This document shows positions 18,937 to 64,000 of a stretch of DNA of 64,000 bases, piece by piece (the first letter of the stretch is position 1; every line of letters starts with the position of its first letter). The notes beneath the pieces were generated by a model. The model was not told the origin of the DNA, searched no databases, and worked only from the letters and a program-made list of their open reading frames with translations. This DNA is from Owenia fusiformis. Lineage: Eukaryota; Annelida; Polychaeta; Sabellida; Oweniidae. The stretch lies in contig CAIIXF020000008.1 of NCBI GenBank assembly GCA_903813345.2, positions 25,898,822 to 25,962,821 of the forward strand, written 5' to 3'. The translations under genes and the position numbers were made by a program.

Positions 18937-20173
18937 ATGTTGAACGCATTACCACCAGAAGTGTTGGATTACATTTTCGGCTTTGTATAAAAAACCTCCT
19001 ACCTCATACCCACCTACCCACATACGTGGGACATGATAAAGTCTTTGAAGGGTTCAATTTTAAAGATCTTAGTTTATTAAATCTTAGTTTATGATGAATT
19101 ATAGATGCATTTGTAACGACCTTTGATAGCACTTGCTACTACATTCCAGCTGGGTTCCATTCCCACTCGGGGCATCGAATTAGGCACACTTTATTTCAAT
19201 TTCTTTATCTGGCCTGTTGGACCTATGCTCACAATCCTTAGTTATTCCCCTGGGTCGCCCTTGGGTCATAACACATAAAATGTATCCATATGCATTTATT
19301 TGTGGATCTGTCACCTGTCTAGTCATAAAATAAAGCAGGTATTGTAGAAATGTTAATAATTTGAGCTATTTTGAGATTCATAAATTTTAACATTGAACCC
19401 TTCAATGACTGTATCATTTTCCACGTAGGTGGGTAGGTGGGTATGAGGTAGGAGGTTTTTATACAAAGTCTACATTTTCCAAAAAGCTTGAAACCAAAGA
19501 TGTTCTAAATGTATCCCTCGTCTGTAAAAGATTTGAAGCCATTATTGATGGATCCAATCGACTCTTCAGATGTGTATCACTATGCAATAGTGAAATAGGG
19601 GAAAAGCAATTGCTACAGCTATCAAAACATTCTGAACAATTTGAAGAAATATATATATGTGGAGCCGTAGAAATATGTGTTGACCCCACAGATTTCGATT
19701 ATCATCTGATACAGAGCCTAACATTTAGCACAAATCTATATTATCTCATGCTGGATACCACAAGTATTTCTACATTGACATTCCTACGATTTACACCAAA
19801 TTTGAAGGTTCTGTCCATAGAGCACTGCAATAATTTGGTTAGTGATGACATTGCCTCATTGAAGTACTGCAAGAATGTAGAACAGATCCATATGTCCCAT
19901 ACTGGAATTACAGCCAGAAGTATTTTTGAACTGTGTGCTAAATGCAGATTTGGTGAACTCATAGTATTGGACTGCCAAGGAATAGAATTCATATTTTCGG
20001 AAACTCTAGCATTGACAACCATTCAGAAGGACCTTATATATTTTGGACTTTCCCTGTTTCCAACTTTTACCAGGGAAACATTTGAGGTGTTTTTTAGAAA
20101 AAGGTTTGTATCATTGTCCATGGGAAAACTTAAATGGATACTGGGTGATGATGCATACATAAATGGGGGTTGA
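18937..20173 (+). CDS. F-box / leucine-rich-repeat-like protein
   Basis: The ATG at 18937 lies just after a 3' splice site (gcatttcag). Exon 18937-18984 encodes MLNALPPEVLDYIFGF. The best continuation is an acceptor after ccaaaaag, exon 19487-20173, giving ...IFGF|LETKDVLNVSLVCKRFEAI, a textbook F-box (LPPEVL..IF..L...D.L..SLVCKRF) at residues 5-40 and a protein of ~244 aa. An in-frame alternative acceptor at 19467-19468 would add six residues. The rest has degenerate LRR-like units (FTPNLKVLSIEHCNNLVSDD, CKNVEQIHMSHTG, FGELIVLDCQGIEF). F-box proteins bind Skp1 in SCF ubiquitin ligases and LRRs bind the substrate; the substrate here is unknown. No orthologue is named. Confidence 0.8.
18981..19468. 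mobile_element. Palindromic-ended MITE forming the intron of the F-box gene
   Basis: The left arm (CTTTGTATAAAAAACCTCC, then tacctcatacccacctacc) and right arm (ggtgggtaggtgggtatgag...GGTTTTTATACAAAG) are inverted repeats of ~75 bp (18981-19062 and 19390-19468). The donor GTATAA (18985) lies inside the left arm and the likely acceptor is only 18 nt past the right arm, so almost the whole intron is this element. The interior holds no ORF. Confidence 0.85.
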
Positions 20174-20702: not shown

Positions 20703-21707
20703 ATGACTGCCATGGAGCAGAGTGATGATGTAAAAACCATGGATGACCATACTTATGTTAAAACTGTTTTAAATACCAGAACCATAGATGTTCTATCTGA
20801 TAATGACAACACTAGTGAAATTGAGTGTGAAACTAATAACTCTGTTTTGGTTGACATGTTATGTCTGAATGAAAATAGTCACAAGTCAAGTGTTCATGCT
20901 AATCCTTGCAACATAACTGTTCACCAACCACAAACTCAAGTCAATTGTGATGATATTACTGTTTTTGAGTCAACAGATCAAGTCAATCCTAGCTCAAATA
21001 ATATTTCCAATCTTGGTGACAATATTATGTCTAACTCACAAAATATTGAAAATCTTGGTGACAATATTGTGTCAGGCTCAAGTAATAATGTTGATCCTGG
21101 TAACAGATTAAATACCATTTCTCAATCTGGCCTTGCAAACATCATCAATTGTGAAAATGTAAACATGTCAAATATAGGTGCTCAAAAAAAGTTGACAAGG
21201 AAACGGATGCGTAATCCCGATAAATGGGAACGAAATATCAACCAAAGACGAAGACAGCATGGTGAAGAGTACAAAAATGTAAAGGGAAATATCAGACCAG
21301 CACGGAAAGTAAAAACTAGAAAAGATTGTATGGGAAAATGCAGATTTAAATGCAGTCTCAACATAAGTAAATGTGAAAGAGAGAAAATTCACCAAGCATA
21401 CTGGAAATTAGATACAAGAGACAAAGACCATTTTCTAAACAAAACTACTAAAAAGATAGTGAAGCAAAGACATAGAACAAAAGCAGTTAAATCAAGAAGA
21501 CAGTTTACTATGCTTTATTTCTTTCCAGTGAATGACATATATGTGAGGGTCTGCAAGGAGTATTATCTTAGCACATTAGACATATCACAGAAAACTGTAA
21601 TAAATATGCATGATAGAAAATGTAATATAGATGTTAAAACTTTGCCAAGGGGAAAAAAACAAGGAATGCATTCAAAAGAACTCAACAAGTGTAAGACAAA
21701 AATATGA
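20703..21707 (+). CDS. Transposase-like protein, N-terminal part (frameshifted)
   Basis: A 334-codon frame. Residues 1-155 are acidic and Asn/Ser-rich, with NLGDNI repeated. From KLTRKRMRNPDKWERNINQR onward it is strongly basic, with a conserved-looking region: GKCRFKCS cysteines, IHQAYWKLD, FTMLYFF, VRVCKEYYLSTLDISQK. I recognise this order as the N-terminal domain of a large invertebrate family of transposase-like proteins whose C-terminal half has an RNase H-like core. The protein then breaks: the conserved continuation is in the frame of the next entry, which needs one base fewer. An A7 run at 21653-21659 is the likely site of the extra base; deleting one A joins both frames without a stop. 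Confidence 0.75.
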   Translation: MTAMEQSDDVKTMDDHTYVKTVLNTRTIDVLSDNDNTSEIECETNNSVLVDMLCLNENSHKSSVHANPCNITVHQPQTQVNCDDITVFESTDQVNPSSNNISNLGDNIMSNSQNIENLGDNIVSGSSNNVDPGNRLNTISQSGLANIINCENVNMSNIGAQKKLTRKRMRNPDKWERNINQRRRQHGEEYKNVKGNIRPARKVKTRKDCMGKCRFKCSLNISKCEREKIHQAYWKLDTRDKDHFLNKTTKKIVKQRHRTKAVKSRRQFTMLYFFPVNDIYVRVCKEYYLSTLDISQKTVINMHDRKCNIDVKTLPRGKKQGMHSKELNKCKTKI

Positions 21708-23499
21708 TGTTCGAAAACATATCGAAAGTTTTCCTGTTGTAGAGTCTCACTACTGCCGCAGTAAGTCAAAGCGAAAGTACTTAGACAGTACTCTGACAGT
21801 AAGAAAAATGTTTCGCTTGTATCAGGAAAGTATGATTAAAAGGGGTCAAGAGCCTGTGAAAGAAAACATATATAGAAACGTATTCAACGAAGAATACAAC
21901 TTAAGTTTTTTTAAGCCGAAAAAAGACCTGTGTGACCTCTGCGAGCAGTATAAAATAGAGAAAAAGAACCCACATGTAGTAAATGAAGACCTCGAGAATA
22001 AATATAAAAAACATAGAAAAGAAAAAGAGCTAACTCATGCAGAACGACAAAAGGACAGAAAAATTAACAGCAGTAAGCAAGCAACTATTTGTATGGATCT
22101 ACAGAGTGTGCTGACCTGCCCAAAAGCCAATATTAGTTCATTTTACTATAAGAGAAAACTTGGTGTCTTTAACATGACATTTTCCACACAATACATGGAT
22201 GAAAAGACAGGCACATGCTGTACATGGAATGAAAATGAGGCTGGAAGAGGTGCCAATGAGATTGCGAGTTCTGCAGTCAATGCCATAAAAACATTTGTTA
22301 CTGACACACCAGATGTAGACACTTTAAATGTTTGGTCTGACTCCTGCGTTGCACAGAATAAAAACTCAATCATGAGCATGGCCATTAAGGACATGTTGAT
22401 TCCTTTTGCAGACAGAAAACCACCATTTACAGTGAATCAGAAATTTGGGGAACACAGCCACAGTGAGATACAGGAAGTTGATGCCATGCATAGCATAATT
22501 GAGAGATCGATCAAGCCAAAGGATATATTCAGTCCAAAGGGATATGTTGATACCATTAAGGGAGCACATGAGACCAAGCCCTACAATGTTCATGAAATGA
22601 AACCAGAAGATTTTAAGGATTTCAAGAAAGCTAGTGAGCAGTTCGATTTCAGAAGTGTTCCATTCACTAAGGTTAAACAATTAACCTACAGCAGTAATGC
22701 TCCATTCTCACTGGAGTATCGCTGTGGATTTGATCAAAGTCCTATGCAGGTGTCACTGCATCGACCTACGAGAAAAAGATCACAACAAAATACACCAACC
22801 AAACATGCAGAAGCAAAGTGGCCAAAGGTCAGTAAGCTAAATTGCAAGTCACATGTGACAAAGGAGAAACGAGATGATATACGTGATATGCTCAAGTTCA
22901 TGAGCGGTGAGGATAAAGAGATAATGGCAGAGATTGCTGGACCAAAATGTATTACACAAAAGAAGAGAGTACTGGTCAAGGAACTGGAAGTAGAATATGA
23001 TGACACTAGAAGAAAAAAGAGAATAGAAAGAACAAAAATTGTAAACAAACGAAGAAGTAAAAGTTGTAAACAAAAGGAATCTCATGAGACTTTAAGAAAG
23101 AGGAACGCAGATGGACAAGGATCGGCCAAAGAACAAAGGAGTAAAAGGTGTAAACAAAATGAATCTCTGGAGACTTTAAGAAAGAGGAACGCAGACGGAA
23201 AAGGATCGGCCAAAGAACAAAGGAGTAAAAGGTGTAAACAAAATGAATCTCAGGAGACTTTAAGAAAGATGAATGCAGACGGAAAAGGATCAGCCAAAGA
23301 ACAAAGGAGTAAAAGGTGTAAACAAAAGAAATCTCAGGAAACTTCAAGAAAGAGGAACGCAGGTGGAAAAGGATCAGCCAAAGAACCAAAGAGTAAAAGG
23401 TGTAAACAAAATGAAACCCAGGAGACTACAAGAAAAGGGAACACAAACGAAAAAGGATCAGGAAAAGAATCAAAGAGTAAAAGATGCAAACAAAAGTAA
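21631..23499 (+). CDS. Transposase-like protein, DDE/RNase H-like C-terminal part
   Basis: A long open frame overlapping the previous one by 77 nt. Its first ATG is probably not a real start: residues ~22 on (VRKHIESFPVVESHYC) continue the upstream protein. Seen: a CDLCEQYK cysteine pair; TICMDLQSVL (Asp codon 22096); NVWSDSCVAQNKN (Asp 22339); and EVDAMHSIIE (Asp 22480, Glu 22501). The three acidic positions fit a DD(D/E) RNase H fold. The family resembles what is catalogued as DUF7869, from memory and not searched. No terminal repeats were found, so an old domesticated copy or a decayed transposon are both possible. The only visible lesion is the frameshift, which argues for recent inactivation, sequencing error or, less likely, +1 recoding. 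Confidence 0.75.
   Translation: MLKLCQGEKNKECIQKNSTSVRQKYDVRKHIESFPVVESHYCRSKSKRKYLDSTLTVRKMFRLYQESMIKRGQEPVKENIYRNVFNEEYNLSFFKPKKDLCDLCEQYKIEKKNPHVVNEDLENKYKKHRKEKELTHAERQKDRKINSSKQATICMDLQSVLTCPKANISSFYYKRKLGVFNMTFSTQYMDEKTGTCCTWNENEAGRGANEIASSAVNAIKTFVTDTPDVDTLNVWSDSCVAQNKNSIMSMAIKDMLIPFADRKPPFTVNQKFGEHSHSEIQEVDAMHSIIERSIKPKDIFSPKGYVDTIKGAHETKPYNVHEMKPEDFKDFKKASEQFDFRSVPFTKVKQLTYSSNAPFSLEYRCGFDQSPMQVSLHRPTRKRSQQNTPTKHAEAKWPKVSKLNCKSHVTKEKRDDIRDMLKFMSGEDKEIMAEIAGPKCITQKKRVLVKELEVEYDDTRRKKRIERTKIVNKRRSKSCKQKESHETLRKRNADGQGSAKEQRSKRCKQNESLETLRKRNADGKGSAKEQRSKRCKQNESQETLRKMNADGKGSAKEQRSKRCKQKKSQETSRKRNAGGKGSAKEPKSKRCKQNETQETTRKGNTNEKGSGKESKSKRCKQK
23047..23499 (+). repeat. 84-bp coding tandem repeat, five copies, Lys/Arg-rich
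   Basis: The C-terminus of the transposase-like protein is a 28-residue repeat with the pattern RSKRCKQNES.ETLRKRNADG, then KGSAKEQ, five times with decreasing similarity towards the end. Copies start at ~23053, 23137, 23221, 23305 and 23389. Its strong basic charge suggests DNA or RNA binding or nuclear localisation (inference). The antisense ORFs here are shadows. Confidence 0.9.
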
Positions 23500-23784
23500 T
23501 CTGCAAAAATAGAGGCTAGGAAAAATGACATTTGGTGAAATCGTCATTGCCATAACCCAAAGTATTTTTTATATATGTAATTCTTTTTTGCAAGTATAAT
23601 GTGCCATCCAAAATATTTATGTATTTTTATAAAAATTATATGTTACGTTTGTACTCTAGGCTAGATAGATCTTGTATAATGATATAAGACTAAGTTTAAT
23701 TTATACAGATATTATGTTAATGGGTAAATTATGTACCTTTCATATAAAATTTCGTAATCTTTAATTTGACTTAAACACCATCTA

Positions 23785-33358: not shown

Positions 33359-36300
33359 ATGGAAGTGAAGGCCGACACCAAAGTTGTGTCATCTGTGTTA
33401 GGCTCAAAGGCATCAGTATTAGCCCCTGTAACCCAGGATACAAAGCTCATCAAGTCAAGCTATATGAACGTAAGTCATCGTATTTTTTACATTCAGTCAT
33501 GGTTATAATTATATATTGAATGTATTTTGTAATCATCCTTTACCACTTGGATTGATATTCAAAAGTGGCAGTGTATCATATTGTGGCTTCAGTAGACCTA
33601 TAGTACTTTTATCTCTGTCTTGCAATACAGTGAAACCTGTCTTAGTGAACACTTCTCTTTAGTGAACACCTGCTTCTAGTGGACACTCTTCCTCAGCACA
33701 TACTCTACTGACTTCTAAATAAATTACCATCCCAGTCGTGAACTCCTCCCAACTCTGAACACTTTTTCCTGGCAAAAAAATGTTCAATATACTGTATACA
33801 GGTTTTACTGTACATGTGAAACAACCATGAAATACCTAGTACTTTGGAATTTTTGGAAAAATTAAATCTTATTTATGAAAAAAATCTCAATAAATGCTGA
33901 CATGTTCAGTTCAATTAAGCTCTCAATTTGAATTTAAAAAATGAAAAAATGATCTATATGTTCCTCTTATATTATTTACACTTATCTTAACTCAAGTCTA
34001 AATTTTTAAACTTTACTTTTTGCATTAAAATAATTTGTAAGATCAAATAGAAGTTAGAATTCATATCCTATGAACCATGCAATGGTCTGTTGTTCGTTGT
34101 CATAAATATGGAATATAGATCATTTCTGTTGAAATAATGACCTTATCCTATGAAAGTGAAGATAAATGTTTTAATTTTATAGTGCATGTTAAAGGGAATT
34201 TAATGTTCTCTCTACAGTCACCAAATATTTAATCTTAATTTAGGATGTGAATATTAAACTTGAACAATTGAGAAGATGAAAAACAGCCAGTCATAGAATC
34301 ATTAGAAAATTCCCATCATTTTGAAATAAGTTGTTGAGTTGTACAAATATTGATTGGTTTTGTACAATGATTGTGAAAAGTACAATATTCAGGATGAAAT
34401 TGTGGTATGATTAAATGGATGTGGTCTTCCTCATATTGTAATAAATTACCAGCTTTACTGGTCATGCTAACCCTTAACTGCAATGCGTATTGTCATTGTA
34501 AGTCATCCTTTGTTTTCCACTTCAAAGAGATGAGTGGTTCTATTAAATAAGTTTTGTTTGTTGGGATTTGCTAATCCAGGGAGTTGCTGTTTTTCTAGTC
34601 AACCATTTCTTGATTTCTCTTTTCTGTATCCCTCTCCATTTAGTTTTAAACCTCAAATTGTAATCTAATCCTGTATTCGCAAATACAACTACAGACTACT
34701 GGCTGCGAGTGTGACCTCCAATTTATAGGTAATTTGCATAAAATATACTCATCAGTTTTGAAGTTGAAATAACAAACAACCCTTTTATGGACGAACTGTG
34801 ACCAGTGATCACATGACTTTTTATGCCACTGTAAGTATTGATTATGATTAAGCCGCTCGATTGAATTAGTGACTAGATCGTATAGCTGCACAAATAGGCA
34901 GATTAATCAGTTATTATCCCATCGAACGAAGTTCGGAGGGATATAGGGAACGCCTCCGTCCGTCCGTCCGTCCGTACGTCCGTCCGTCCGTCCGTCCGGG
35001 CAATAACTCAAATACCGTTGGCCCGATTTTATTCATATTTTGTATACATATACCCTATGGGGTTAGAAGTTCTGCTCGAAAGCCGATTTTCAAAATGGCC
35101 GCTCATTTCAAAATGGCGGCCATTTTAGTGCCGATTTTACAGTAATTTAGGTGCAATATGTAAAACTGTAATAGCAATATGTTTTAAATGTAAAAAAAAT
35201 TATATAGGACATTAATAAAGCTAGAAATGTAGATATTAAAAAAGCACATGGCAGCCATCTTGAAAAATGGCGGCCTTTTCTCGTTATTTTACGATTTTTG
35301 CTGTAACTCCAAAAGTAGTGGAGCGATTTTGTTCATATTTGGTATGTGAATACTATAAGCATGGCACACTGTCTAATGACACTTTTGGTAGAAGGCGGCC
35401 ATTTTGAAAAATGGCGGACATTTTGAAAAATGGCCGCCATTTTAACTTATTTTACTAAAACTCGAAAAGTAGTGGAGCGATTTTGTTCATATTTGGTATG
35501 TGAATACGTATAAGCATGGCACACTGTCTAATGACACTTTTGGTAGAGGGCGGTCATTTTTGAAAATGGCCGCCATTTTAACGTATTTTACTATAACTCG
35601 AAAAGTAGTGGAGCGATTTTGTTCATATTCGGTATGTGAATACTGTAAGCATGGCACACTGTCTAATGACACTTTTGGTAGAAGGCGGCCATTTTGAAAA
35701 ATGGCGGACATTTTGAAAAATGGCTGCCATTTTAACTTATTTTACTATAACTCGAAAAGTAGTGGAGCGATTTTGTTCATATTTGGTTAGTGAATACGTA
35801 TAAGCATGGCACACTGTCTAATGAAACTTTTGGTAGAAGGCGGCCATTTTTCAAAATGGCCGCCATTTTAATGTATTTTACTATAACTCGAAAAGTAGTG
35901 GAGCGATTTTGTTCATATTTGGTATGTGAATACTAAAAGCATGGCACACTGTCTAATGAGACTTTTAGTAGAAGGCGGCCATTTTTCAAAATGGCCACCA
36001 TTTTAACGTATTTTATTTTAACTCGAAAAGTAGTAGAGCGATTTTGTTCATATTTGGTATGTGAATATTATAAGCATGGCACACTGTCTAATGACACTTT
36101 TGGTAGAAGGTGCCCCTTTTGAAAAATGTTCGATGGGATTCGCTACGCTTTGGCGTTGCCGTTGTTCTGGTTTAGGTCAGGGATTGGGTTTATTATTCAT
36201 ATTTAAATGAGTTAGCCATCATCCATCCATTCGTGTTTTTTTTTTGTTCATTCGAATGGGCGGTAATTCAAGTTCTGTATGGATGGATTTAATTTTTATA

Positions 36301-39300: not shown

Positions 39301-42300
39301 GCGTAGCGATACCAGGTATTATGTAGAATTTAATAACTTATTCATTTGTAATTATATCATAAGTGTATTACATAAAACCATCAAATTATTATCAATATTG
39401 TGAATGTAAAAATGAGGAAAATTGGATAAAACCATGGATTTTCAGTAACTTGTTGACCAACTCATCTATGGTAGTATCGGGTGTTTATAAGAGTACTTAA
39501 TTGTTTAAAGAGGTGTTTATCATCAACTCTGACTATTAATTAACACTCTACTTTGTAATATTTTGCATTAACTGACATAAAAATTATATTTACCATGATA
39601 ACGGTATATAGACAGAGTGCTAAAAAAGTCCTTATTAAAGGATATGAATCGCATCAATCCTAACTACATATTCCAACAAGATGGGGCTCCCTCGCACACA
39701 TCTAAAGCGACAATGGAGTTCTCGCATGCCAATGCACCTGATTTTATCCCCCCTGACTTATGGTCCCCAAATAGCCCTGATCTCAATGTTATGGATTATT
39801 TTGTGTGGGGTGAACTAGAAAAACATGTTCATAGTGTTCCCATCCATTCAGTTCAAGAACTCCAACAAAGAATAACTTTATGTTGGGAACAATTATCACA
39901 ACAATCAATTAACGCGGCAATAAATAAATGGCGTCATAGACTAAAACTGGTTGTGCAGGAACAAGGAGGACATATTGAACATTTACTTTAAAAACAAAAC
40001 AGCCAAAGACACACCTAATGTTATATATCGACCTTGTTTAGAAATGTCTCAGTTATCTACATATCAATTTTTTAAGGGATTGCATCAAAAATAAAAAAAT
40101 GAGATTAAAATGAAAAAGGGTGAACTTTCTTTTGGCCCACCCTGTAGATGAAGTATTTCAATTTTCTTATATACCTTTTTGAATTATGATATTTAAAAAT
40201 ATGTATAATTTAAAATATGTTCAGTATCTGTAAGTATCAGTATTATAAGACTGTTATGAAGTTAATTTTTAACAAAATAGACATGAGAAGTATTTACATG
40301 TATAAGTGTCACACATTTTGTCATAAAATATCGCTCTTTGTAACAGAGGCTGGTAGTGCCATGTATGAATTAACAATTGCTTCCCTTTTCAAATATTCCA
40401 TCAAAATGTTGTATAATATGAGTGTGGGGGAGAATGCTAAAGTTACAAAGTCCCATCGGGGCTAAGAATTGTTGCTCTCTATGAATTGTAATCATTTTTG
40501 TGGTCATTATGTTTCACTCAACATAGCATCATACTGGTTTAAGATTTATAGCCAATCATTATGACATATATTATGTTAGCTATGATAGTAGTGATTGCAA
40601 GCTGTTAGGCAGACAGTGTTGTGATATGAAATGAACTTGATAATGTTTGTATACTAACAGAACTTATATTACTAGTAGTACAGTAGTATCTTTTAAACAA
40701 ATCAAGCCCCCCCCCACTAAATATGCAAATCTTTTACTCATTAAGTATAGTTATGAACATCGCAATATTTGTTAGTTATATCATGAAACCCTTCATCATT
40801 TCCATCTAAAATAGTATGTATTACTGTGAAATGTTGGCACTTTGGTCAGAAAATATATCTATTTTACATTTATTAGGTGTTTTTTAGTTTGACCCTCAGG
40901 TATTGTATTCTTGGGTTGATTATCATTAAATTTGAGGTTTCTCTAAAATATGACTTTATTATTCTCAAGTGAGACATTTTAGAGTAGATTCCGAATATTA
41001 TATCATTTTTCTGATTTGAGCCTCAGAGAATCGAAAATGGCTCCCTGATGGAGGAATGTGCAGTAATTTGATCACTTCAAAGTAGGGATGGGACGGTTCG
41101 TTTCGGTTCGGTTCGGTTCGGTTTTTCGGATCATCAGCCGTCGGTTCGGTTTTTTCGGTTCGGTTCATTTATTTTAAGGATTTGTATTGATTGACATGAT
41201 TAGCTGCTTTGTCTCTGACTTCACTGCTGACTGTCACCTTCTTTTAATACAACCAATAAAATAACTAATTTATAATCTTCATTTCTTTTGGGAAAACGGG
41301 AATTTGAGATCCAGACGCCATATTTGAATGTATTGTGGGTGCGCACAAAATAATACCCTATATCGAACCTGCGCAAATATAAATTTGCGCAAATCTTTGT
41401 ATCAATTATGCCAAGTTATAACAATATTTTATAGATGAAATTTTATGTTATAGTATTTCATGAACAATACATATTATCTAGAATACGCGACTAAAGAATA
41501 TAGTACCAGGGACCACATGATTGATTACCGAGGGATACGAATACGCGGATACGAAACAAATCTAGTAAACGAGTGAGCTAGCAACAGACAAGACAGACAA
41601 GGTAGGGACTAGGAATATCAAAAATGTTGCTGTAAAACAGTGTTTTTAACTGTTTTATTGATACTTGACCAATGAAATATTAATCCGAAAACGATCCGAA
41701 AAGCTGATCCGAAAGTAGGGCCGTGATCCGAAAACCGATCCGAAGGCTATGAACCGCGGTTTTTCGGTATTTCGGTTATCCGTCCCACCCCTACTTCAAA
41801 GTATGGCTATTACTAATATCGAAGATATTTTTACTTTTTAGTAGACTATAACTATTTCATCATTTTATTATGTCACCACCGAAAAGTGGTGACATATTGC
41901 TATGGTCTCCTTTTTTGTAATGGCGGTTGGTGGTTGGCAATCGGCAGGTAGTGGTTGGTGATTGGTGATCGGTGGGTGGCGTCTGTAACAAATTCAAGGT
42001 AAAAAATTGTATTTTTTCAACTTGCTTCTAATTGACCAATTTGTTTTTCAAAATCATCTACAAGTTCTCAAAAGTTCAAATTTGATTATAGATTTGACCT
42101 TCAATGACATTCTCATGGTCAAAAAATAGTTGACCTTCAGTGACCTTCTCAAGGTCAAAAACGTTTTTTTTCTAAATCATCTACAAGTTCTAAGAAATTC
42201 AAATCTGACTTATGATTGAACTAATGAGATTGTGAGCAACTAGGTGGTGACATTTTGTCATGTTAATGCCTTGTTTATCAGTATATGTTTACAGTACTTT

Positions 42301-54300: not shown

Positions 54301-57300
54301 AGATGGTTGTTTAGGAAAAGATGACCACCATTTTTATGGAAAAGTTAAATATTTTTGATTGTTGTCCAAATTCTATAGGCTGATGTTTTAGGATTTTTGA
54401 TTTGATATAAATGTGTTTTTTTTCAATAAACTGTTTTTTGCATCTTCAACCAGGTGATGACATTTTGTCATATTAATCATGGTGTAATTATTATAATTTC
54501 AGAGTCTTTCGGGGGTCGGTGGATCTGATATCCTTACCCCAAACCCAAGGATCAATGTGCCTGAGGGGGGTATCACTAACATTGAAAGGCTAGTCCGTAC
54601 CCACCCTATTTGGTACCTGCCCATGTGCAGTAGAGCTGGAGCTGTTAATCTGCTGCAAAATAAACCAGTAGGGGTGAGTCTGTTTGTTCATTTTATTATG
54701 TCCCAACCAAAAAATCTGGAGTCATATTGTCACCTAGTATATAAAAATCAGAGAAAGTTTGAAATACCTTTCAGAATTCTTCCCTTCATATAGGTAGTGT
54801 CCTGAATTCTTGTCACGGATTGATTTGAAATTTTCAGGAATGTATCTTAGTATGGATATCCAGAACTGATTGTTTTTCTTTTAGATAAGGCTTGTTTTAT
54901 AAAAAAAGCATTTTGAATTAGTACGCAATGTCTTGAAATATTCACCTGTAACTTGCAACCCATTTAACAATACATGTATGACCATTGACCACTCCTGTAT
55001 AAGTGATATGTATGGTGTACATAATGAATCATTGTGTAATTTACATGTTCACATTCATTCCAATTTTTGATGAATTTAGTTATTCTGTGTGGTATCTATG
55101 CTCATTCCACTTGTTAACATATTGATGAATCGTATATTTCAGACGTTTCTTGTTCGACAGTCCAGTAAGCTAGACACGATGGCACTGTCACTACGGCAAC
55201 CACCGGAAACTGGTCAGATTGTGGAGCATTACCTCATAGAGCACACACCAGAGGGCCTCAGAATAGAGGGATCTTTCCACCTATTCCAAGCAATACCTTT
55301 GCTCATTGATCACTATTGCCAGAATTTGTAAGTTTAATGTAAAAAGTAATGAATTTAAACTGTTAACATCAATTTTAGTATCAGGTCATTTAATCTTGAA
55401 GGAAGGAATTTTCAGTTTTCATGATATGCTCCGTTCCATTTTCTTCCAGGGATGAGCTCCCCTGCAAGCTTGTACTGCCCCCAAGTATAGCAAATGCTTG
55501 CGGATACAGTGAACTGTCATCTCTGGCTCTTTTGGGGCAAGGTAATATTGACAATTTGTTGAGAAATATTCATTTCTTTTTCCTATAAAGTGGCATATTT
55601 TTATCATTTTGCTTTACAAAAGCCATCAACTTCCTTTTCTCTCGAACTCAACAAAAATAAAAACAAAACTATTTTTAATGAACCCAAGTTGACCTATATT
55701 GAATAATGCAGTTTATATTCATAATTTCAATGATTTCAACAATTATTTCTAGAAATAAGAAAATTTTATAGTTTTATCGATTTTGTCTGAAGTTAAGGTT
55801 TTCCATATGACAGTGCTATGCTGTGATGTTGTTGCCTGCCTTTAAATACCCTAGGTCAGTTTGTTATTACTGTACCGACCGCAACAACCCCTTACAGTTT
55901 GCACCCCACTCTAGTCAGGCCATTGGAATTAACTGTCCCTTGCAAACAATGTCATTGTTTTGAAGTTGGCTATTTGTTCACTTATATGTCACGTTCAAAT
56001 ATATCTGTTTGATATTTAAATTGGTAGATCTTCATATTTTAAGATTCTTGCCACTCCATTGTAAATCTTTTTAATCGTTATTTTCAGAATTTTGGAATTC
56101 CCCTCTAAGTCCTGGAAATCCTGTCGCTGAAAAACATCATAGCAAACAGCAAACAGTGCCATCTATCAACATCCAAAGCAAACAAAATACTCAAAATGTG
56201 TCAAGTCCAATATTGACTACCTTCTCGTTGGCAGAGAATGATACGAATAAATTACAAAGTGCAATTTCAAGTAACATACAACAAAGAAGTACAGGTGAAA
56301 CTTTTAATGAAGGCAATAATCTGAAATCTCTCATTGGTAATGTGGATAGTAAATCTAATGTAGCCAGCACATCACTAGAAGCTAATACAACATTTGTGAG
56401 TACAACATCTATTGCCTCTGCAACTATTGACTTAATGCAGCAACTTACTGAAATGACTACTGCAACCACTGATTTAATGCAACAAGCATCGCCACTCCCT
56501 TCAGATAAATCAGGTCAACCACAGAGTACATACTTTAGCAGCAACCTGTCTGACAAGCTAACTGATTATGAAGATATATGGCGGCAGAATACGCCTCTTA
56601 CCACACAACCAGTTACCACGACAATACAACACATAGCAACAGTAACCATAGACAGCAAGCCCGCCAGATTCTCTGGATTTTCAAATCCGAATTTTGAGCC
56701 AACAAGAAAACCACCCATTTTCCCTCAAAGGCCGCAAAGTATGCAGCCGCCAAATGTTTTCACATTTAACTTTGGTGATCAAGTCCAGGGAACCAATAAC
56801 CCTCAAATGACACGAGTCAAACAGGATTTATTAGTTAGTGTGCAACCCAGGGCAAGAAAAAATTCAAGCCCTGCATATGCTGAGCCCTATGACTCCCTAA
56901 TTGGGAAAATTGAAGGTGTTCATAATTCACCAAGTCAAGCTGTCCGTGTGAGTGGTGTTCCAGGGATTAAGAAGAGTCCATCTGATTCATCATTTAAGCC
57001 TACTGGCAACCAACTGCCCCCATCCCAAGGTCCTTCTCGTAGAGTTTCTGCCCCAGTCAGGCCTCAGAAGCCTACTGCTTTGCACCAAGGTAGGCACACC
57101 ATGCAGCCAGGAATGTGGGGAAACCAATGGCAACCTTCCCAAGGCTATCAAAGACAACCAGCTAACCAACGGGTGTCGATACAAGAAAACCAAATGCAGC
57201 AATTACAGGGTAACTATCAGCAAAACACCCAACACCCTCAACCATCTTGGCAACCAAATACAAACAGACAGTCCACGGGTTTGATAACCCAGGTACCAGT

Positions 57301-60300
57301 ATCGCGTACATATAGCCTAAACCAACCTCCTGTGGTCTCTCAGGCTCCATCTGATGCATCCAAATATAACACCTTCCCACAGAAAGCTAAACATCAGATT
57401 CCCACTGCCATAGATGAACTTATTGACCTCACCCCTGGGGGTACAGGGCGAGCCTATCAGGATACCTTGGGCACTCACACTCTGGGGAAGTTCCCCACCC
57501 AGCCTCAGAGAGACTCCTTAGCAGAAACACAAATTCCTGTAAAGGCCCTTGAAATTCATAAACCAACCAAAGCATTATTACTAGAAAATCAAGATCGCTT
57601 TTCTGCCTATGATAACGTATCTGGATTAGTTCGAAGTAATACAATGTGCACTACTGGAAGTATTAAAACTGTATTTGAGCAACCCTGGGATAGCTCATTA
57701 TGGGATGCCTTATTAACAATGGATAGAACTACACACTCTGAACAACCTAGTAGTGACCATCATAGTGATATCTATGTGTCAGCTAGTGAACAAAATTGGC
57801 CAAATTCAATGCCAATGGACGACATTGGGATCCATGATGCAGAAACTCCACGAATCAGCTCAATGTGTCCATCTATTGACTCCAGGTGCAATGAAACTTT
57901 CGATAGCATGAGTGTAAACTCTGAACATATTTTCGATTTAGAACTTAGTAAGGAAGTAACAATGTCTGAACAAACTCAACAGAAGCCATCAGTTTCTGAT
58001 ACTCCAAAGGAAAGTAGCCAGGGAGTGGAGCTGAACAGTCGCCTCTCAATAGCATCAGATCAATCAATTGATAACAAAACACCTGTTAAGCAAATCAAAG
58101 ACTTAAACAGTAGTAGCACATCTATCTCAACTGAGTATGAAAACAACATGCTCAATGAGAAGAAGAAGAACAGGCTAAGTGTAATAAGTGGCAACTTTAA
58201 GGATATGATCCTCCCATTGTTATCCACACCCAGGTTGATCAGTCTAAAAACAAGAAATCGGGAACCAGGCGTGAGAATCAGAGACTATATATCAAAGTAA
58301 GTATGCCATAGTAAATAGAAAACAGTTATTTCAAAGTATTGATTCTTTGTCATCTGGTTGCAGAATTCCGATTTCAACAATTAGGATTTTTGAGTATTCA
58401 AAAGTGTGCTTATGGACCATTTCCTTCATAATAATATTTGATGTGAGTCATCTATTCAAGTGACTTTCTAAATATCTCAGACTTTGAAAAATATCCTTAT
58501 TTAAGTGGCATGGTTAATTTATAATGTCACCACCAGAAGTGGTGCTCTATTGTTATAAGTTTTATAAGGTTCGGTGGTTGGTGTTTGGTGTCTGTAACAA
58601 ATGGCAGGTGAGGATATTTTGCATGGTAATGCCTTGTCTTGTATATACTGGTACATGTACTGTATATTTGATTTGAATCTTTATTCTAAAAATCAAGAGC
58701 TAAGTTTCTGTTGTTTAAATAGACTTGCAGTAGACAAAAAGACTACTTTTGGTAGTACAGTGGAGAACTTCATTCAGTGTACAAGAGACAGCACGGAGAC
58801 TAACCCTAGTGTCGTGGTGAGGAACATACGCCAGTTTATGAATGGGATTAAGAACTACTTGGTGAAACATGGGGAAGGTCAGCTAGAGGAGGTCATTGAG
58901 AGGGAAAGAACAAAGGTGAGTTAACTGTAGTAGTCTGGCCACCATAGTAGGAAAACGTGATGTATTATACAGGATTTTAAGCTTAAAACGTATTTTCTTC
59001 ATACAATATTGCTTACTTTTATTTGAGCAGTCATTTTGACTTGATTCTGATTTCAAATCACACATATATGAAAATTTTACTAGATTTTAAGTTGCAAGCA
59101 AATTCATGTGATAAGTTGATAAGCCTGGTTATGATTTATATGATGATGTATGAATTTATTCTTTTATTTAAGTTGAAATCTGATGAGTTTCTGAACATTG
59201 ATGTTCTCTTAGAGGGTGCCCTACATCGCTGTGTAGTTAAGCCACTTAAAGATCACATTTACAGACTTTACAACAGTGATTACAACAAGTAAGTTACTTA
59301 TCACAACCACATTACAACAACCCTCTTAGAGGGTGCCCTACATTGCTGTATAATTTCCTGTTGCAACTTTCAGATGTCTTATTTGTGAATTTTTAACACC
59401 ATACCATTAACTAGCTACCAATATGCAACTTTCAATGCATAGAATATATAAGTATGTAATGGTTGAATAACTATTGAAATCAAATCACTTTTCTCCTAAT
59501 AATATAAAAACTCCTCTTTCTTTTTTCCTTTGATTCGAGCCGCAGATAAATGATAGGGCATCTGGATTCATTCCCCTTCAATATACAAATTGAATATGAA
59601 ATAAGCAAAAAAGCAACAAATTTGTTGGCCTACCCTGTCTTTTACATCAGTGTATTATTTTCAGGAATGGTAATTTGTCCCTGATGTCAGCCAATATTAA
59701 CTTTGCTAAAAGTAAGACTGCTGAGGAGATAGGTGTTAAGGTAAGGAATATTATGCAACTGCTTTTTGGCAGTATATAGAATGTTTTACGATGACAAGTG
59801 GACAACTATTTAGAAATACCTCTACACTTGTGCAATGAATCCTGCTCAAATAGTGCAGGACTATATACATGAATACAGGTTGCTGGCATGTGTAATTGGT
59901 TCAGATAATATGATTTCAAAAAAAACATTTCCATGTTTTACCAAATTGCTAAGGCTATTTACTCTATTCATAGATGAAAAGTGAAATTTCAATATAAAAT
60001 ACAATTAATTCTCTTAAGCATGCACTATATATTGTGCATGTAGTGTTGCCCTCTGAACTTGCTCCGAAACACAATTTCCATTTCTGTAGGAAAATCAGTA
60101 CTTGTATTTATGTACAAATTATATTTTTGTTTCTAGGCAGGTCTCAACCCACCCCCTCCCAGCACAATGGACGTGATAAAACATTTCTTCAGTAAAATGC
60201 AACGAGCCTATTCTCCAGTGAAGAAATTGGAAAATCTTCTTGGTGCAACATCTGCAATATACAACAATGTAGGTTATCTTGTGGTAATATATTATAATAC

Positions 60301-63300
60301 TGTACTTACATATTTGCTACTCAATTCTGTTCAATTATAAATAATTCTCAGATATTCTGTACAAGGAACAGTTCTTATTCTTAGATATTCTGTACAATGG
60401 ACATTGGACATTCCGTGGAATGATGATTTCTCATTCTTAATGTATATCATACATAATACTATAAGAGTCCCTTGTATAGTGTTTAGGCTGTTAATGAATA
60501 TAAACTTATTCTAGACTTTAACATTGTAGGTGCAAGAAAATAACAGTGGAAGACAGGCATCATCAATGGGAGCAGATGGTAAGATATTACACAATAAACA
60601 AAAAAATTATAGGCTAGGCCAAACCAAATCTGTGTTCTTACCAACCCCCTATTCGACAGTATGATAAATGTACATATTTCTTATGTATTAATGGATTTGT
60701 GTCCTACTTCATAGACTTACCTGAAAGGCACTTCATTTTTTATTTTGTAAAATAAAAGTGAATATTTAAAAACAACTAGGATTGAGAATAATTTTGAATG
60801 TTGCCCTTTGTGCTGATTGTTTTATACGGTGTTATTTTAGATTTCCTGCCTATGTTCATCTATGTGCTAGTCCAGTGTGGTATGGTAATGGCTGAGGTGG
60901 AGGCTGACTACATGTGGGGTCTCCTGCACCCATCTGTCCTGAATGGGGAGGGGGGCTACTACCTAACTACCCTTAGTAGTGCAGTTCATGTCCTGAAGAA
61001 CTTCCATGAAACTGCAAGCAGCCAACCTGCTTCTCTAGAGGTAACTAATACTCCCAAGCTCTTCTCTATTGTTAGTAAGAAAATGCTGCTTGAATCCAAA
61101 TTATTGCAATATTTGTGAAGAGTAGACATTACAGACAATATAAATCTTCTATAATACATTCCATTGCAATGGTATATTTCAGTTGATCAAAGCCAGGAGT
61201 AACACGCTTACAGAGCAGCAGGGATTCATCCGCGTGGCCATGCCTGATGAGTTCAATGCATGTTAATCATTAAAGTTATTTCATTCAATTGCAATGGTAT
61301 ATTTCAGTTGAGCAAAGCCAGGAGTAACACGCTTACAGAGCAGCAGGGATTCATCCGTGTGGCCATGCCTGATGAGTTCAATGCATGTTAATCATTAAAG
61401 TTATTTCATTCAATTGCAATGGTATATTTCAGTTGAGCAAAGCCAGGAGTAACACGCTTACAGAGCAGATGGGATTCATCCGCGTGGCCATGCCTGATGA
61501 GTTCAATGCATGTTAATCATTAAAGTTATTTCATTCAATTGCAATGGTATATTTCAGTTTAGCAAAACCAGGAGCAACACGCTTACAGAGCAGCAGGGAT
61601 TCATCCGCGTGGCCATGCCTGATGAGTTCAATGCATGTTAATCATTAAAGTTATTTCATTCAATTGCAATGGTATATTTCAGTTGAGCAAAGCCAGGAGT
61701 AACACGCTTACAGAGCAGCAGGGATTCATCCGCGTGGCCATGCCTGATGAGTTCAATGCATGTTAATCATTATAGTTATTTCATTCAATTGTAATGGTAT
61801 ATTTCAGTTGAGCAAAGCCAGGAGTAACACGCTTACAGAGCAGCAGGGATTCATCCGTGTGGCCATGCCTGATGAGTTCAATGCATGTTAATCATTAAAG
61901 TTATTTCATTCAATTGCAATGGTATATTTCAGTTGATCAAAGCCAGGAGTAATACGCTTACAGAGCAGCAGGGATTCATCCGTGTGGCCATGCCAGATGA
62001 GTTCAATACATGTTAATCATTATATTTTAGTTATTTCATTCCATTGATTTTATGTACTGGTATGTTTCAGTTGAGCAAAGCCAGGAGTAACACGCTTACA
62101 GAGCAGCAGGGATTCATCCGCGTGGCCATGCCTGATGAGTTCAATGCATGTTAATCATTAAAGTTATTTCATTCAATTGCAATGGTATATTTCAGTTGAG
62201 CAAAGCCAGGAGTAACACGCTTACAGAGCAGCAGGGATTCATCCGCGTGGCCATGCCTGATGAGTTCAATGCATGTTAATCATTAAAGTTATTTCATTCA
62301 ATTGCAATGGTATATTTCAGTTGAGCAAAACCAGGAGTAACACGCTTACAGAGCAGCAGGGATTCATCCGCGTGGCCATGCCTGATGAGTTCAATGCATG
62401 TTAATCATTAAAGTTATTTCATTCAATTGCAATGGTATATTTCAGTTGAGCAAAGCCAGGAGTAACACGCTTACAGAGCAGCAGGGATTCATCCGCGTGG
62501 CCATGCCTGATGAGTTCAATGCATGTTAATCATTAAAGTTATTTCATTCAATTGTAATGGTATATTTCAGTTGAGCAAAACCAGGAGTAACACGCTTACA
62601 GAGCAGCAGGGATTCATCCGTTTGGCCATGCCTGATGAGTTCAATGCATGTTAATCATTAAAGTTATTTCATTCAATTGCAATGGTATATTTCAGTTGAG
62701 CAAAGCCAGGAGTAACACGCTTACAGAGCAGATGGGATTCATCCGCGTGGCCATGCCTGATGAGTTCAATGCATGTTAATCATTAAAGTTATTTCATTCA
62801 ATTGCAATGGTATATTTCAGTTTAGCAAAACCAGGAGCAACACGCTTACAGAGCAGCAGGGATTCATCCGCGTGGCCATGCCTGATGAGTTCAATGCATG
62901 TTAATCATTAAAGTTATTTCATTCAATTGCAATGGTATATTTCAGTTGAGCAAAACCAGGAGCAACACGCTTACAGAGCAGCAGGGATTCATCCGCGTGG
63001 CCATGCCTGATGAGTTCAATACATGTTAATCATTAAAGTTATTTCATTCAATTGCAATGGTATATTTCAGTTGAGCAAAGCCAGGAGTAACACGCTTACA
63101 GAGCAGCAGGGATTCATCCGCGTGGCCATGCCTGATGAGTTCAATGCATGTTAATCATTATAGTTATTTCATTCCATTGCAATGGTATATTTCAGTTGAG
63201 CAAAGCCAGGAGCAACACACTTACAGAGCAGCAGGGGTTCATCCGTGTTGCCATGCCTGATGAGTTCAATGACAGCATCAAGACTAAGACTCTCCCTGTA

Positions 63301-63328
63301 AGACCAAACATGACAACCAAAGAAGTCT
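33359..63328 (+). CDS. RIN: RIN/Sprint-type Ras and Rab interactor (SH2-VPS9-RA), 3' end beyond window
   Basis: Coding exons, all phase-consistent: 33359-33469, 46241-46341, 51851-51929, 54503-54673, 55143-55327, 55450-55541, 56088-58296, 58723-58915, 59173-59288, 59665-59740, 60137-60268, 60530-60578, 60841-61040, 63196-63328; 1282 codons so far. Residues ~134-226 are an SH2 domain (HPIWYLPMCSRAGAVNLL; FLVRQSSK with the phosphate-binding Arg at ~159; GSFHLF). Residues ~247-982 are one 2.2-kb exon, Gln/Pro/Ser/Thr-rich, likely disordered. From ~983 is the RIN homology region (NIRQFMNGIKNYLVKHGEG, SDEFLNIDVLLEGALHRCVV), then VPS9 (ADDFLPMFIYVLVQCGM..., GEGGYYLTTLSSAVHVLKNF), whose Asp and Tyr drive Rab5 nucleotide exchange. 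The last exon starts the RA domain (KTLPVRPNMTTKEVC). RIN proteins couple Ras and phosphotyrosine signals to Rab5 and endocytosis. The paralogue cannot be assigned; invertebrates usually have one (Sprint). Confidence 0.95.
33628..33810. mobile_element. pogo/Tc1-like MITE, 183 bp, TA target
   Basis: CAGTGAAACCTGTCTTAGTG at the left and tacaggttttactg at the right are inverted ends flanked by TA (33626-33627, 33811-33812). The internal agtgaacac/agtggacac repeats are typical of Tigger/pogo-like ends. It lies in RIN intron 1. Confidence 0.8.
33813..34915. other. RIN intron 1, unassigned segment
   Basis: AT-rich, with no exon. A fragment tttgttgggatttgctaatc...ggagttgc (34555-34605) is shared with 42770-42815 and with the start of the window. 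Confidence 0.4.
34916..36139. repeat. ATCCCATCGAAC element with six internal tandem units
   Basis: The ends ATCCCATCGAAC and GTTCGATGGGAT are exact inverted repeats. A (GTCC)n tract lies at 34957-34998. Inside, a unit beginning aaaagtagtggagcgatttt repeats at 35311, 35465, 35601, 35755, 35891 and 36026, with spacing mostly alternating 154 and 136 bp. Each unit carries ggcggccattttgaaaaatg-type self-complementary motifs. Its small ORFs are repeat translations. A diverged copy without the amplified units is at 7591-8156. Confidence 0.8.
36140..38575. repeat. RIN intron 1, mosaic of old dispersed repeats
   Basis: Stretches at 36290-36420, 37890-38400, 45190-45300 and 54080-54290 share gatttggttcaaat...ataggacctttgctcaagaa...aatggc motifs. 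At 37795-37865 a block repeats 32948-33025. No coding exon. Confidence 0.5.
38578..40144 (+). mobile_element. DD37D mariner-like element, ~95-bp TIRs
   Basis: The left end CAGGGTGGGCCAAAAAAAAG and right end (cttttggcccaccctg) are inverted for ~95 bp, with TA on both sides (38576-38577, 40145-40146). The C-terminal third of a transposase is open at 39617-39991. The segment 38790-39610 is not a transposase N-terminus; it holds two ~88-bp direct repeats, each with tgacgtca (38936-38943, 39021-39028). The element is thus internally rearranged. It lies in RIN intron 1. Confidence 0.9.
39617..39991 (+). pseudogene. Mariner (DD37D, maT-like) transposase, C-terminal fragment
   Basis: A 124-codon frame in the same orientation as the element. 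It contains YIFQQDGAPSHTSKAT, with the second catalytic Asp, and WSPNSPDLNVMDYFVWGELE. Counting from QQD to the Asp of VMD gives 37 intervening residues, the spacing of the DD37D (maT) mariner clade. The N-terminal HTH domains and first catalytic Asp are absent, so it is not a working transposase. The stop is followed closely by the 3' TIR. Confidence 0.88.
40147..41082. other. RIN intron 1, unassigned
   Basis: AT-rich; the ORF at 40217 has no recognisable content. A C-run lies at ~40709. Confidence 0.3.
41083..41793. mobile_element. hAT MITE, 711 bp, 8-bp TSD CTTCAAAG
   Basis: TIRs TAGGGATGGGACGG / CCGTCCCACCCCTA, flanked by a perfect 8-bp duplication CTTCAAAG (41075-41082, 41794-41801). 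Subterminal zones are packed with ggttcg/cggttc and ccgaaa motifs. Eight-bp TSD plus TAGGG ends is the hAT signature. No ORF. Confidence 0.9.
41875..42265. repeat. 'TGTCACCACC' dispersed repeat, fullest copy
   Basis: It starts tatgtcaccaccgaaaagtg, has a ggttggtggttgg-rich zone, tctgtaacaaattcaaggta, ttgaccttc...ttctcaaggtc motifs, and ends ggtggtgacattttgtcatg, ttaatgccttg. Fragments of the family lie at 3008-3135, 4319-4470 (inverted), 54450-54480 and 58520-58640. Confidence 0.7.
42266..44607. other. RIN intron 1, unassigned
   Basis: No exon. A fragment of the window-start repeat lies at 42770-42815. A short hairpin lies at ~44457-44503 (acaggtgatttt ... aaaatcacctgt). Confidence 0.35.
44608..44758. 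mobile_element. Foldback element, ~45-bp arms, 150 bp
   Basis: The left arm (atggcaacattattttgcac then acaaaaaatatttcttt) and right arm (aaagaaatattttttgtata then tgcatatgttgccat) are inverted. The loop is ~55 bp. It would form one long hairpin; no ORF. Confidence 0.75.
44759..46240. other. RIN intron 1, 3' end
   Basis: Contains a cataggacctttgctcaaga dispersed repeat (45190-45300). The intron ends with a clear pyrimidine tract and acceptor gtattttcag at 46240. Confidence 0.4.
46342..51850. other. RIN intron 2
   Basis: A 5.5-kb AT-rich intron. It contains microsatellites (tctgtccgtccgtctgtctg at ~48432-48458; ccatccatcc at ~50630-50655), a foldback element (50203-50338) and a copy (50885-51040) of the repeat seen at 32685-32870. 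No extra exon is supported. Confidence 0.5.
50203..50338. mobile_element. Small foldback MITE, AGGGAGTTTAAGCTTGC ends
   Basis: AGGGAGTTTAAGCTTGC at the left and GCAAGCTTAAACTCCCT at the right are exact inverted repeats ~135 bp apart, each flanked by AAT. Confidence 0.75.
51930..54502. other. RIN intron 3
   Basis: No exon seen. It contains a near-perfect hairpin (52675-52705) and, at 54080-54290, a gatttggttcaaat-type dispersed repeat. Confidence 0.45.
52675..52705. repeat. Perfect hairpin, 12-bp stem
   Basis: atgggctttcaa / ttgaaagcccat separated by a few bases (tctag). An isolated palindrome in RIN intron 3; no poly-T terminator logic applies in this genome. Confidence 0.7.
58520..58640. 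repeat. Fragment of the 'TGTCACCACC' dispersed repeat
   Basis: taatgtcaccaccagaagtg, cggtggttggtgtttggtgt, ctgtaacaaatggcaggtga and ggtaatgccttg match 41875-42265. It lies 80 bp before RIN exon 8. The ORF starting at 58601 merges this with the real exon. Confidence 0.65.
59323..59353 (+). repeat. Fragment duplicate of RIN exon 9 inside the next intron
   Basis: ctcttagagggtgccctaca at 59323 repeats 59206 of exon 9 exactly, then drifts (ttgctgtataatt versus tcgctgtgtagtt). It has no splice sites of its own. It is a ~31-bp local direct duplication 117 bp downstream of its source. Confidence 0.8.
61183..63195 (+). repeat. Array of 16 partial-exon units (mostly 125 bp) before the last RIN exon
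   Basis: Exon-like starts, each right after tatatttcag or tatgtttcag, lie at 61183, 61308, 61433, 61558, 61683, 61808, 61933, 62071, 62196, 62321, 62446, 62571, 62696, 62821, 62946 and 63071; the full exon starts at 63196. Spacing is 125 bp, once 138. Each unit is intron end + acceptor + the exon's first 75 nt (ending DEFN), then gcatgttaatcatta(a/t)ag. Spliced from the exon ending at 61040 (phase 0), any unit reads (L/F)(S/I)KARSNTLTEQQG...MPDEFN-AC-stop. Units 3 and 13 share gagcagatggg and units 4 and 14 share tttagcaaaaccaggagc, so a 10-unit block (1263 bp) was itself duplicated. Most units have ATTAAA right after the stop; units at 61683, 61933 and 63071 have ATTATA. Confidence 0.95.
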
Positions 63329-63379
63329 GTAAGTTAGGTTTTAGAAAATCATTAAAGCAAATGGGCGCACCACCTACCT

Positions 63380-63575: not shown

Positions 63576-64000
63576 GTTAATTGTATTGTATTGTATTGTA
63601 AAATTTTATTAAAGTGTCATGGGTTATATAATAAATACATGTATAAAACAATTACATCATGTATAAAATATCACTAAAATATACAATTATACAATTAACC
63701 CCAGACCGATAACGGCCTATAGGACACTGGGGACATTACCTAAACAGGTGATGTTCCCTAATCTTCAGCATTTGGCCACAGGCTTTTGCCACATATATAA
63801 AAATCCTATCATCGGACATCAATTTATTGAATTTATCATTGTCAGAAAATTCCTGAAAGCCTGGAATTTTATTTGCTACCTTTGAAAACAAATCATTTCT
63901 GGAATTGGAGTAAAATTGACATTTTAACAAAAAATGATGTTCATCCTCTATGGCATTGGCATTACAAAGGGTACAAAGTCTTTCCGGGACTGACAAACGT
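63576..64000 (-). mobile_element. Non-LTR retrotransposon (LINE) 3' end
   Basis: On the minus strand, an ORF entering from beyond the window ends at 63736 and encodes SVPERLCTLCNANAIEDEHH, then FLLKCQFYSNSRNDLF. The C-x2-C...H...C cluster and the 'IEDE.HFLL.C..Y...R' pattern are typical of the C-terminus of LINE ORF2 proteins. A ~155-nt 3' UTR follows, closing in a (TTGTA)n tract (63580-63600 on the plus strand), a usual LINE tail. Only the 3' end is in the window; the clade is not determined. Confidence 0.8.

Follow-up and report, generated by a model that had tools for sequence, protein, structure and literature searches.

In Drosophila, the alternative 3' exons of lola and mod(mdg4) encode different domains and are used. 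The locus described here, in a 64,000-nt stretch of DNA from the annelid Owenia fusiformis (the window), likewise has one common 5' part facing many candidate terminal exons, but all of its copies encode nearly the same truncated end. A second known layout is that of tandem exon duplication and mutually exclusive arrays of the Dscam1 type, with head-to-tail exon copies and their acceptors between constant exons (PMC9013439, PMC5224494, both as far as drawn on here). Among the invertebrate cases of mutually exclusive splicing covered by the cited part of PMC5224494, most arose from recombination engaging the upstream intron. The array in this gene shares the head-to-tail order and the position between constant exons. 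In contrast to Dscam1-type arrays, just the first 76 nt of an exon were copied, without a donor, and the units are nearly identical, so that no diversity is gained. Each copy stops: a TAA was found in 16/16 units, and unit 2, the one unit scored, had no good donor, which sets the locus apart from an array of mutually exclusive exons.

Intronic polyadenylation at skipped terminal exons, as described in the cited part of a human atlas (PMC5928244), involves a small intronic exon with an acceptor, a stop codon and AUUAAA. The units have this layout, with ATTAAA in 13/16, and would likewise truncate the protein. Unlike a typical skipped terminal exon, the units are present in 16 successive copies near the 3' end of the gene, and their cleavage and use are putative. 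With a 125-bp unit, about 17 copies, a repeated two-unit block and a single locus, the array also resembles an intronic minisatellite or VNTR. It differs from a plain one in that its unit spans an intron/exon edge, which gives every copy an acceptor and coding sequence. Among the papers listed by our literature search, covered mostly by title and the opening of the abstract, none described a repeat array across an exon edge comparable to this one.

The RIN gene and the array of units

RIN-type domains were matched in order by Pfam: SH2 (2.1e-06), RIN1-like (2e-17), VPS9 (4e-24), and RA (4.1e-10), where the SH2 and RIN1-like matches refer to single frames and not to the joined gene model. With all four domains matched, the host gene of the array is a member of the RIN family (Ras and Rab interactor), as the initial annotation had proposed. 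When joined, the six coding exons that run from VPS9 to the stop codon form an open frame, with GT-AG edges at 5/5 introns. The RA match in this joined C-terminal part covers profile positions 2-81 of 93. No retrocopy or paralogue that might reveal used junctions was seen, as a search of the assembly with the VPS9 exon (68 aa) gave a single match at E <= 0.001. A comparison with solved structures gave six distinct VPS9 relatives, none of them spanning the RA part, and no RNA family reached its gathering score within the 64-kb window. Elsewhere in the window, an open frame at 19409-20173 matched F-box (0.0001) and, weakly, a leucine-rich repeat. The features of the RIN gene and the array are collected in Table 1.

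Table 1. Positions of the RIN gene features and of the repeat units (window coordinates unless L005 is named).
Feature	Position	Strand	Remarks
SH2 frame of RIN gene	55080..55331	+	SH2 Pfam match on single frame; position is that of the frame
RIN1-like frames of RIN gene	58598..59292 (58598-58924, 58987-59292)	+	RIN1-like matches; positions are those of the frames
Two open upstream VPS9 exons	60137..60578 (60137-60268, 60530-60578)	+	Open frame
VPS9 exon facing the array	60841..61040	+	Ends in phase 0; donor GAG|GTAACT; VPS9 Pfam 4.3e-13
Unique intron ahead of unit 1	61041..61182	+	142 nt; final 26 nt the same as before the true exon
Array of 16 tandem units	61183..63195	+	15 x 125 bp; unit 7 of 138 bp
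Units 3-4	61433..61682	+	Identical to units 13-14 (62696-62945)
Unit 7, divergent	61933..62070	+	138 bp; ATTATA and inserted bases; acceptor region of unit 8 altered
True first RA exon	63196..63328	+	133 nt; donor TCT|GTAAGT
AATCATTAAAG 11-mer	63347..63357	+	18 nt into the intron behind the true exon; same 11-mer in 13 units
Last RA exons	4952-5026 and 5758-5885 of L005 (stretch just past the 3' end of the window)		Joined to the RIN C-terminal part

Tandem Repeats Finder reported a repeat at 61157-63271 with a period of 125, 16.8 copies, 95% matches and a score of 3840, which was the top score among the 23 rows that it gave for the window. The 16 units have their exon-like starts at 61183, 61308 and so on to 63071, followed by 63196 (the true exon), and the start-to-start spacing is 125 throughout, except for unit 7 (138). 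Each unit consists of 76 nt of exon start, a 23-nt junction filler containing TAA and usually ATTAAA, and about 26 nt of intron end with the acceptor. From the exon ending at 61040, the frame is open in 16/16 units through 25 codons and two extra codons, which encode AC (TC in units 7 and 15), up to the TAA. Two bases past the stop, 13/16 units read ATTAAA and units 5, 7, and 16 read ATTATA. These results confirmed what the initial annotation had read in the array, namely 16 units in which a 3' splice site is followed by 25 codons in frame, two further codons and TAA, usually with ATTAAA close behind, as well as the phase 0 of the exon ending at 61040, from which every unit reads on in frame. 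Its claim that RA is reached only through the 17th start agrees with the sequence, in which 63196 is the sole start among the 17 with a complete exon and a donor behind it. The intron at 61041..61182 is probably the original one. Searching the 498-Mb assembly, as far as it was accessible, with the unit gave 17 matches among the best-scoring candidates, all at the RIN locus, and no copy elsewhere was among these candidates.

To describe the product of a unit, its peptide was placed on the joined C-terminal part, in which the RA match begins at residue 140. The unit peptide corresponds to residues 128-152 and carries the initial 13 residues of the RA match. In the predicted product ending in a unit, the VPS9 match is complete and an RA match is absent. 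The annotated RIN protein ending after VPS9 and lacking RA is therefore right in its predicted loss of RA, whereas the cut falls 13 residues inside RA and not cleanly between the domains.

Variation among the units and origin of the array

Among the 16 units, 11/76 exon positions were variable. The 10/75 variable codon positions comprise six amino-acid-changing ones (two within one codon) and four silent ones. Compared with a neutral mix, the ratio of changing to silent positions gave P=0.20 (0.15 with the double change counted once), and P=0.61 without the two silent variants common to the true exon. The 25 codons thus show no significant constraint, on few changes. Leaving aside unit 7, the 15 units of regular length had 9/76 variable sites in the exon part and 3/49 in the tail (P=0.36), which gives no indication of lower variability in the exon part. 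Neighbouring units of these 15 were no closer than others, with a mean of 3.2 differences at offset 1 vs 2.9 over all pairs, a point against the minisatellite reading given below. Ten random changes would create no new stop with a probability of 0.74. Since the codon mix does not differ from neutral, most sets of ten changes would bring no stop and the exon part is no less variable than the tail, copies of such a young age can be expected to retain frame, stop and AG. Young, homogenised copies would show a retained frame and splice signals even in the absence of selection. A truncation device, for its part, does not require its peptide to be constrained. The annotation had also held that splice signals and frame are preserved in every copy. 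The AG and the frame are present in 16/16 units. The acceptors of units 1-7 and 9-16 match that of the true exon in their final 15-26 nt, and the acceptor of unit 8, whose region is altered, does so over 6 nt.

A point against such selection-free copies is that the five consensus differences between the units and the true exon are all silent (P=0.0008 if neither side is constrained). Three of these (positions 24, 42, and 54) are fixed in 16/16 units (P=0.014), and the other two vary within the array. Tested against the within-array variation, the silent differences gave Fisher P values from 0.02 to 0.20, depending on how shared variants were counted. The silent differences are most easily explained if the majority of them arose in the true exon, which is under constraint. 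Alternatively, the first copy may at one time have functioned as an exon.

The junction filler was compared with the flanking DNA. AATCATTAAAG occurs 14 times in the window vs 0.18 expected, with 13 of these occurrences in the array and the remaining one in the intron behind the true exon. The 23-nt filler, with <=2 mismatches, had 15 matches in the array and 2 elsewhere, and the reversed control had none. The best match found for it near the gene, with the intron 11-mer, was equalled by 17/1216 control pieces and 69/20000 shuffles, and by this wider control the match is only moderately unlikely. The shared 11-mer is suggestive of a filler taken from the intron downstream, in which case the first copy may have comprised an entire exon including its donor. 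Units 7 and 16 weaken this idea, since they look older in that they keep a flank-like C at position 105, and they read ATTATA. The ATTAAA of the other units may be derived, and it looks like one hexamer carried along with the repeat.

Unit 1 adjoins the unique upstream intron and the true exon holds the downstream part, as in an ordinary tandem duplication. The identity of units 3-4 with units 13-14 points to exchange in blocks. Arrays with a period >= 40 were present in 8/14 sampled 10-kb stretches of the assembly and arrays with >= 10 copies in 3/14, and since arrays are so many in this genome, some would be expected to cross an exon edge.

We consider it likely that the array is a young minisatellite that by chance straddles the intron/exon edge where the first RA exon begins, and that its units are decoy acceptors without a good donor. 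A segment comprising the end of the intron together with the exon's first 76 nt would have been duplicated with the 23-nt junction, leaving the copy without the rest of the exon and its donor. The array would then have grown to 16 copies by unequal exchange or conversion. The structure and one repeated two-unit block are the directly visible parts of this history, while its mechanism and the order of its events are inferred. Selection for the array would be needed at no step. The array is probably ordinary in origin, by repeat growth, and unusual in place.

Other repeats were also observed. Almost the entire sampled stretch L019 (G000:C11:10000001-10010000) is taken up by a degenerate tandem repeat, whose periods are 70, 140, and 210 bp. 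Arrays of a 135-bp unit at 35296-36128 of the window and at L005:9366-10000 are alike by eye and opposite in orientation, and are perhaps members of a dispersed repeat family. At 23048-23502 of the window, an 84-bp (28-codon) repeat with 5.4 copies is in frame with a 622-aa open frame (21631-23499), lies at its lysine/arginine-rich end, and this frame has no Pfam match.

Acceptor choice and rival explanations

By a weight score for donor sites, three donors of the RIN gene scored 4.9, 8.0, and 12.9, while none of the 8 GT sites in unit 2, the unit that was scored, exceeded 2.73. The lowest value, 4.9, is that of the true RA exon's own donor and is reached by about 7-11% of the GTs in the window. 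This donor is weak, so exon definition there may be poor. The donor at 61040 lies 142 nt from unit 1 and 2155 nt from the true exon, and the intron behind the true exon is 5623 nt long and contains long minus-strand retroelement frames. According to the cited part of PMC9225289, the nearer acceptor wins if introns are short, this preference is reduced with long introns, and a short upstream intron with a long downstream one behaves as the short case. From this rule, as cited, some use of unit 1 is therefore predicted, which speaks against an array that is entirely silent. With unit 1 so near the donor, interference of the units with the gene would be expected.

The retroelement frames in the 5623-nt intron lie at L005:3-4574 on the minus strand, are 1098 and 425 aa long, and match reverse transcriptase (2.3e-36) and endonuclease (2.3e-05) in Pfam. 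The element runs on into 63736-63999 of the window, an end that has no Pfam match and was taken as its continuation. A DDE_3 transposase-like fragment was found at 39602-39991 of the window (E 0.001, below the curated cut-off).

If the array is a minisatellite over the exon edge, each unit would be a decoy, with a 3' splice site nearly as in the true exon and no good donor behind it. Full-length RIN would be made mostly via exon definition at the 17th start, and use of a unit would be a loss. Splicing to a unit would give either a protein cut 13 residues into RA or, when the exon runs to the true donor, a 2146-nt exon with an early stop, whose mRNA would likely be degraded.

The units, chiefly unit 1, might instead act as poison acceptors that are frequently chosen, with the exon extending to the true donor, so that mRNA decay would lower RIN output, a possibility that we regard as unlikely though worth keeping in mind. 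An internal exon of 2 kb is poorly defined, and the exons past the array are still open, so the full-length protein is presumably still made, both of which argue against frequent use of this kind. In its favor, a TAA is present in every unit, the acceptor of unit 1 has 26 nt in common with the true acceptor, and the proximity rule, as given in the cited part of PMC9225289, applies to acceptors of like strength behind a short upstream intron. The initial annotation had taken the units as functional alternative terminal exons, spliced in and polyadenylated at ATTAAA, which would yield a stable RIN without RA at a share set by copy number. The recurrence of acceptor, frame and stop in all units and of ATTAAA in 13, together with a product that keeps VPS9 whole and loses the RA match, agrees with that proposal, and AAUAAA or AUUAAA accompanies 84% of skipped-terminal-exon events in the cited part of the human atlas (PMC5928244). 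But this preservation is expected at the age of the array, ATTAAA is missing from 3/16 units and is common in the AT-rich window (116 matches over the two strands vs 158 expected, with the array contributing 13), and the unit peptide bears a stray start of RA. Furthermore, the human skipped terminal exons in that part of PMC5928244 mostly use 5' sites and much longer introns, while the intron holding the array is near the end of the gene. Taken together, we judge functional terminal exons to be improbable.

Even less to be expected is a splice and polyadenylation buffer tuned by copy number, in which 16 decoys would compete with the true RA exon and the length of the array would set the ratio of Ras-insensitive to Ras-responsive RIN. 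The RA domain is present in RIN proteins and RIN1 was discovered as a binder of activated Ras (PMC8963869, in the part cited); known RIN biology supplies a motive for a tunable buffer only in outline. An assembly error, with a real copy number far smaller or larger, was also considered, as near-identical 125-bp copies are prone to mis-assembly and units 3-4 recur exactly as units 13-14. The units carry distinct variants, one of them is 138 bp long, and the contig measures 39 Mb, and we think such an error very improbable.

As a point against the minisatellite that we favor, the presence of 16 copies within a gene of open exons could mean that a truncated form is tolerated or useful. Because a single donor in this native gene is confronted with 17 acceptors that are almost the same, the locus is a natural experiment on how the spliceosome chooses between proximity across the intron and exon definition. 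If unit 1 is used, the array would be a strong brake on the link between Ras and Rab5; if the array is ignored, exon definition would beat sixteen nearer acceptors. The locus also illustrates that repeat growth over an exon edge can make many would-be exons at once.
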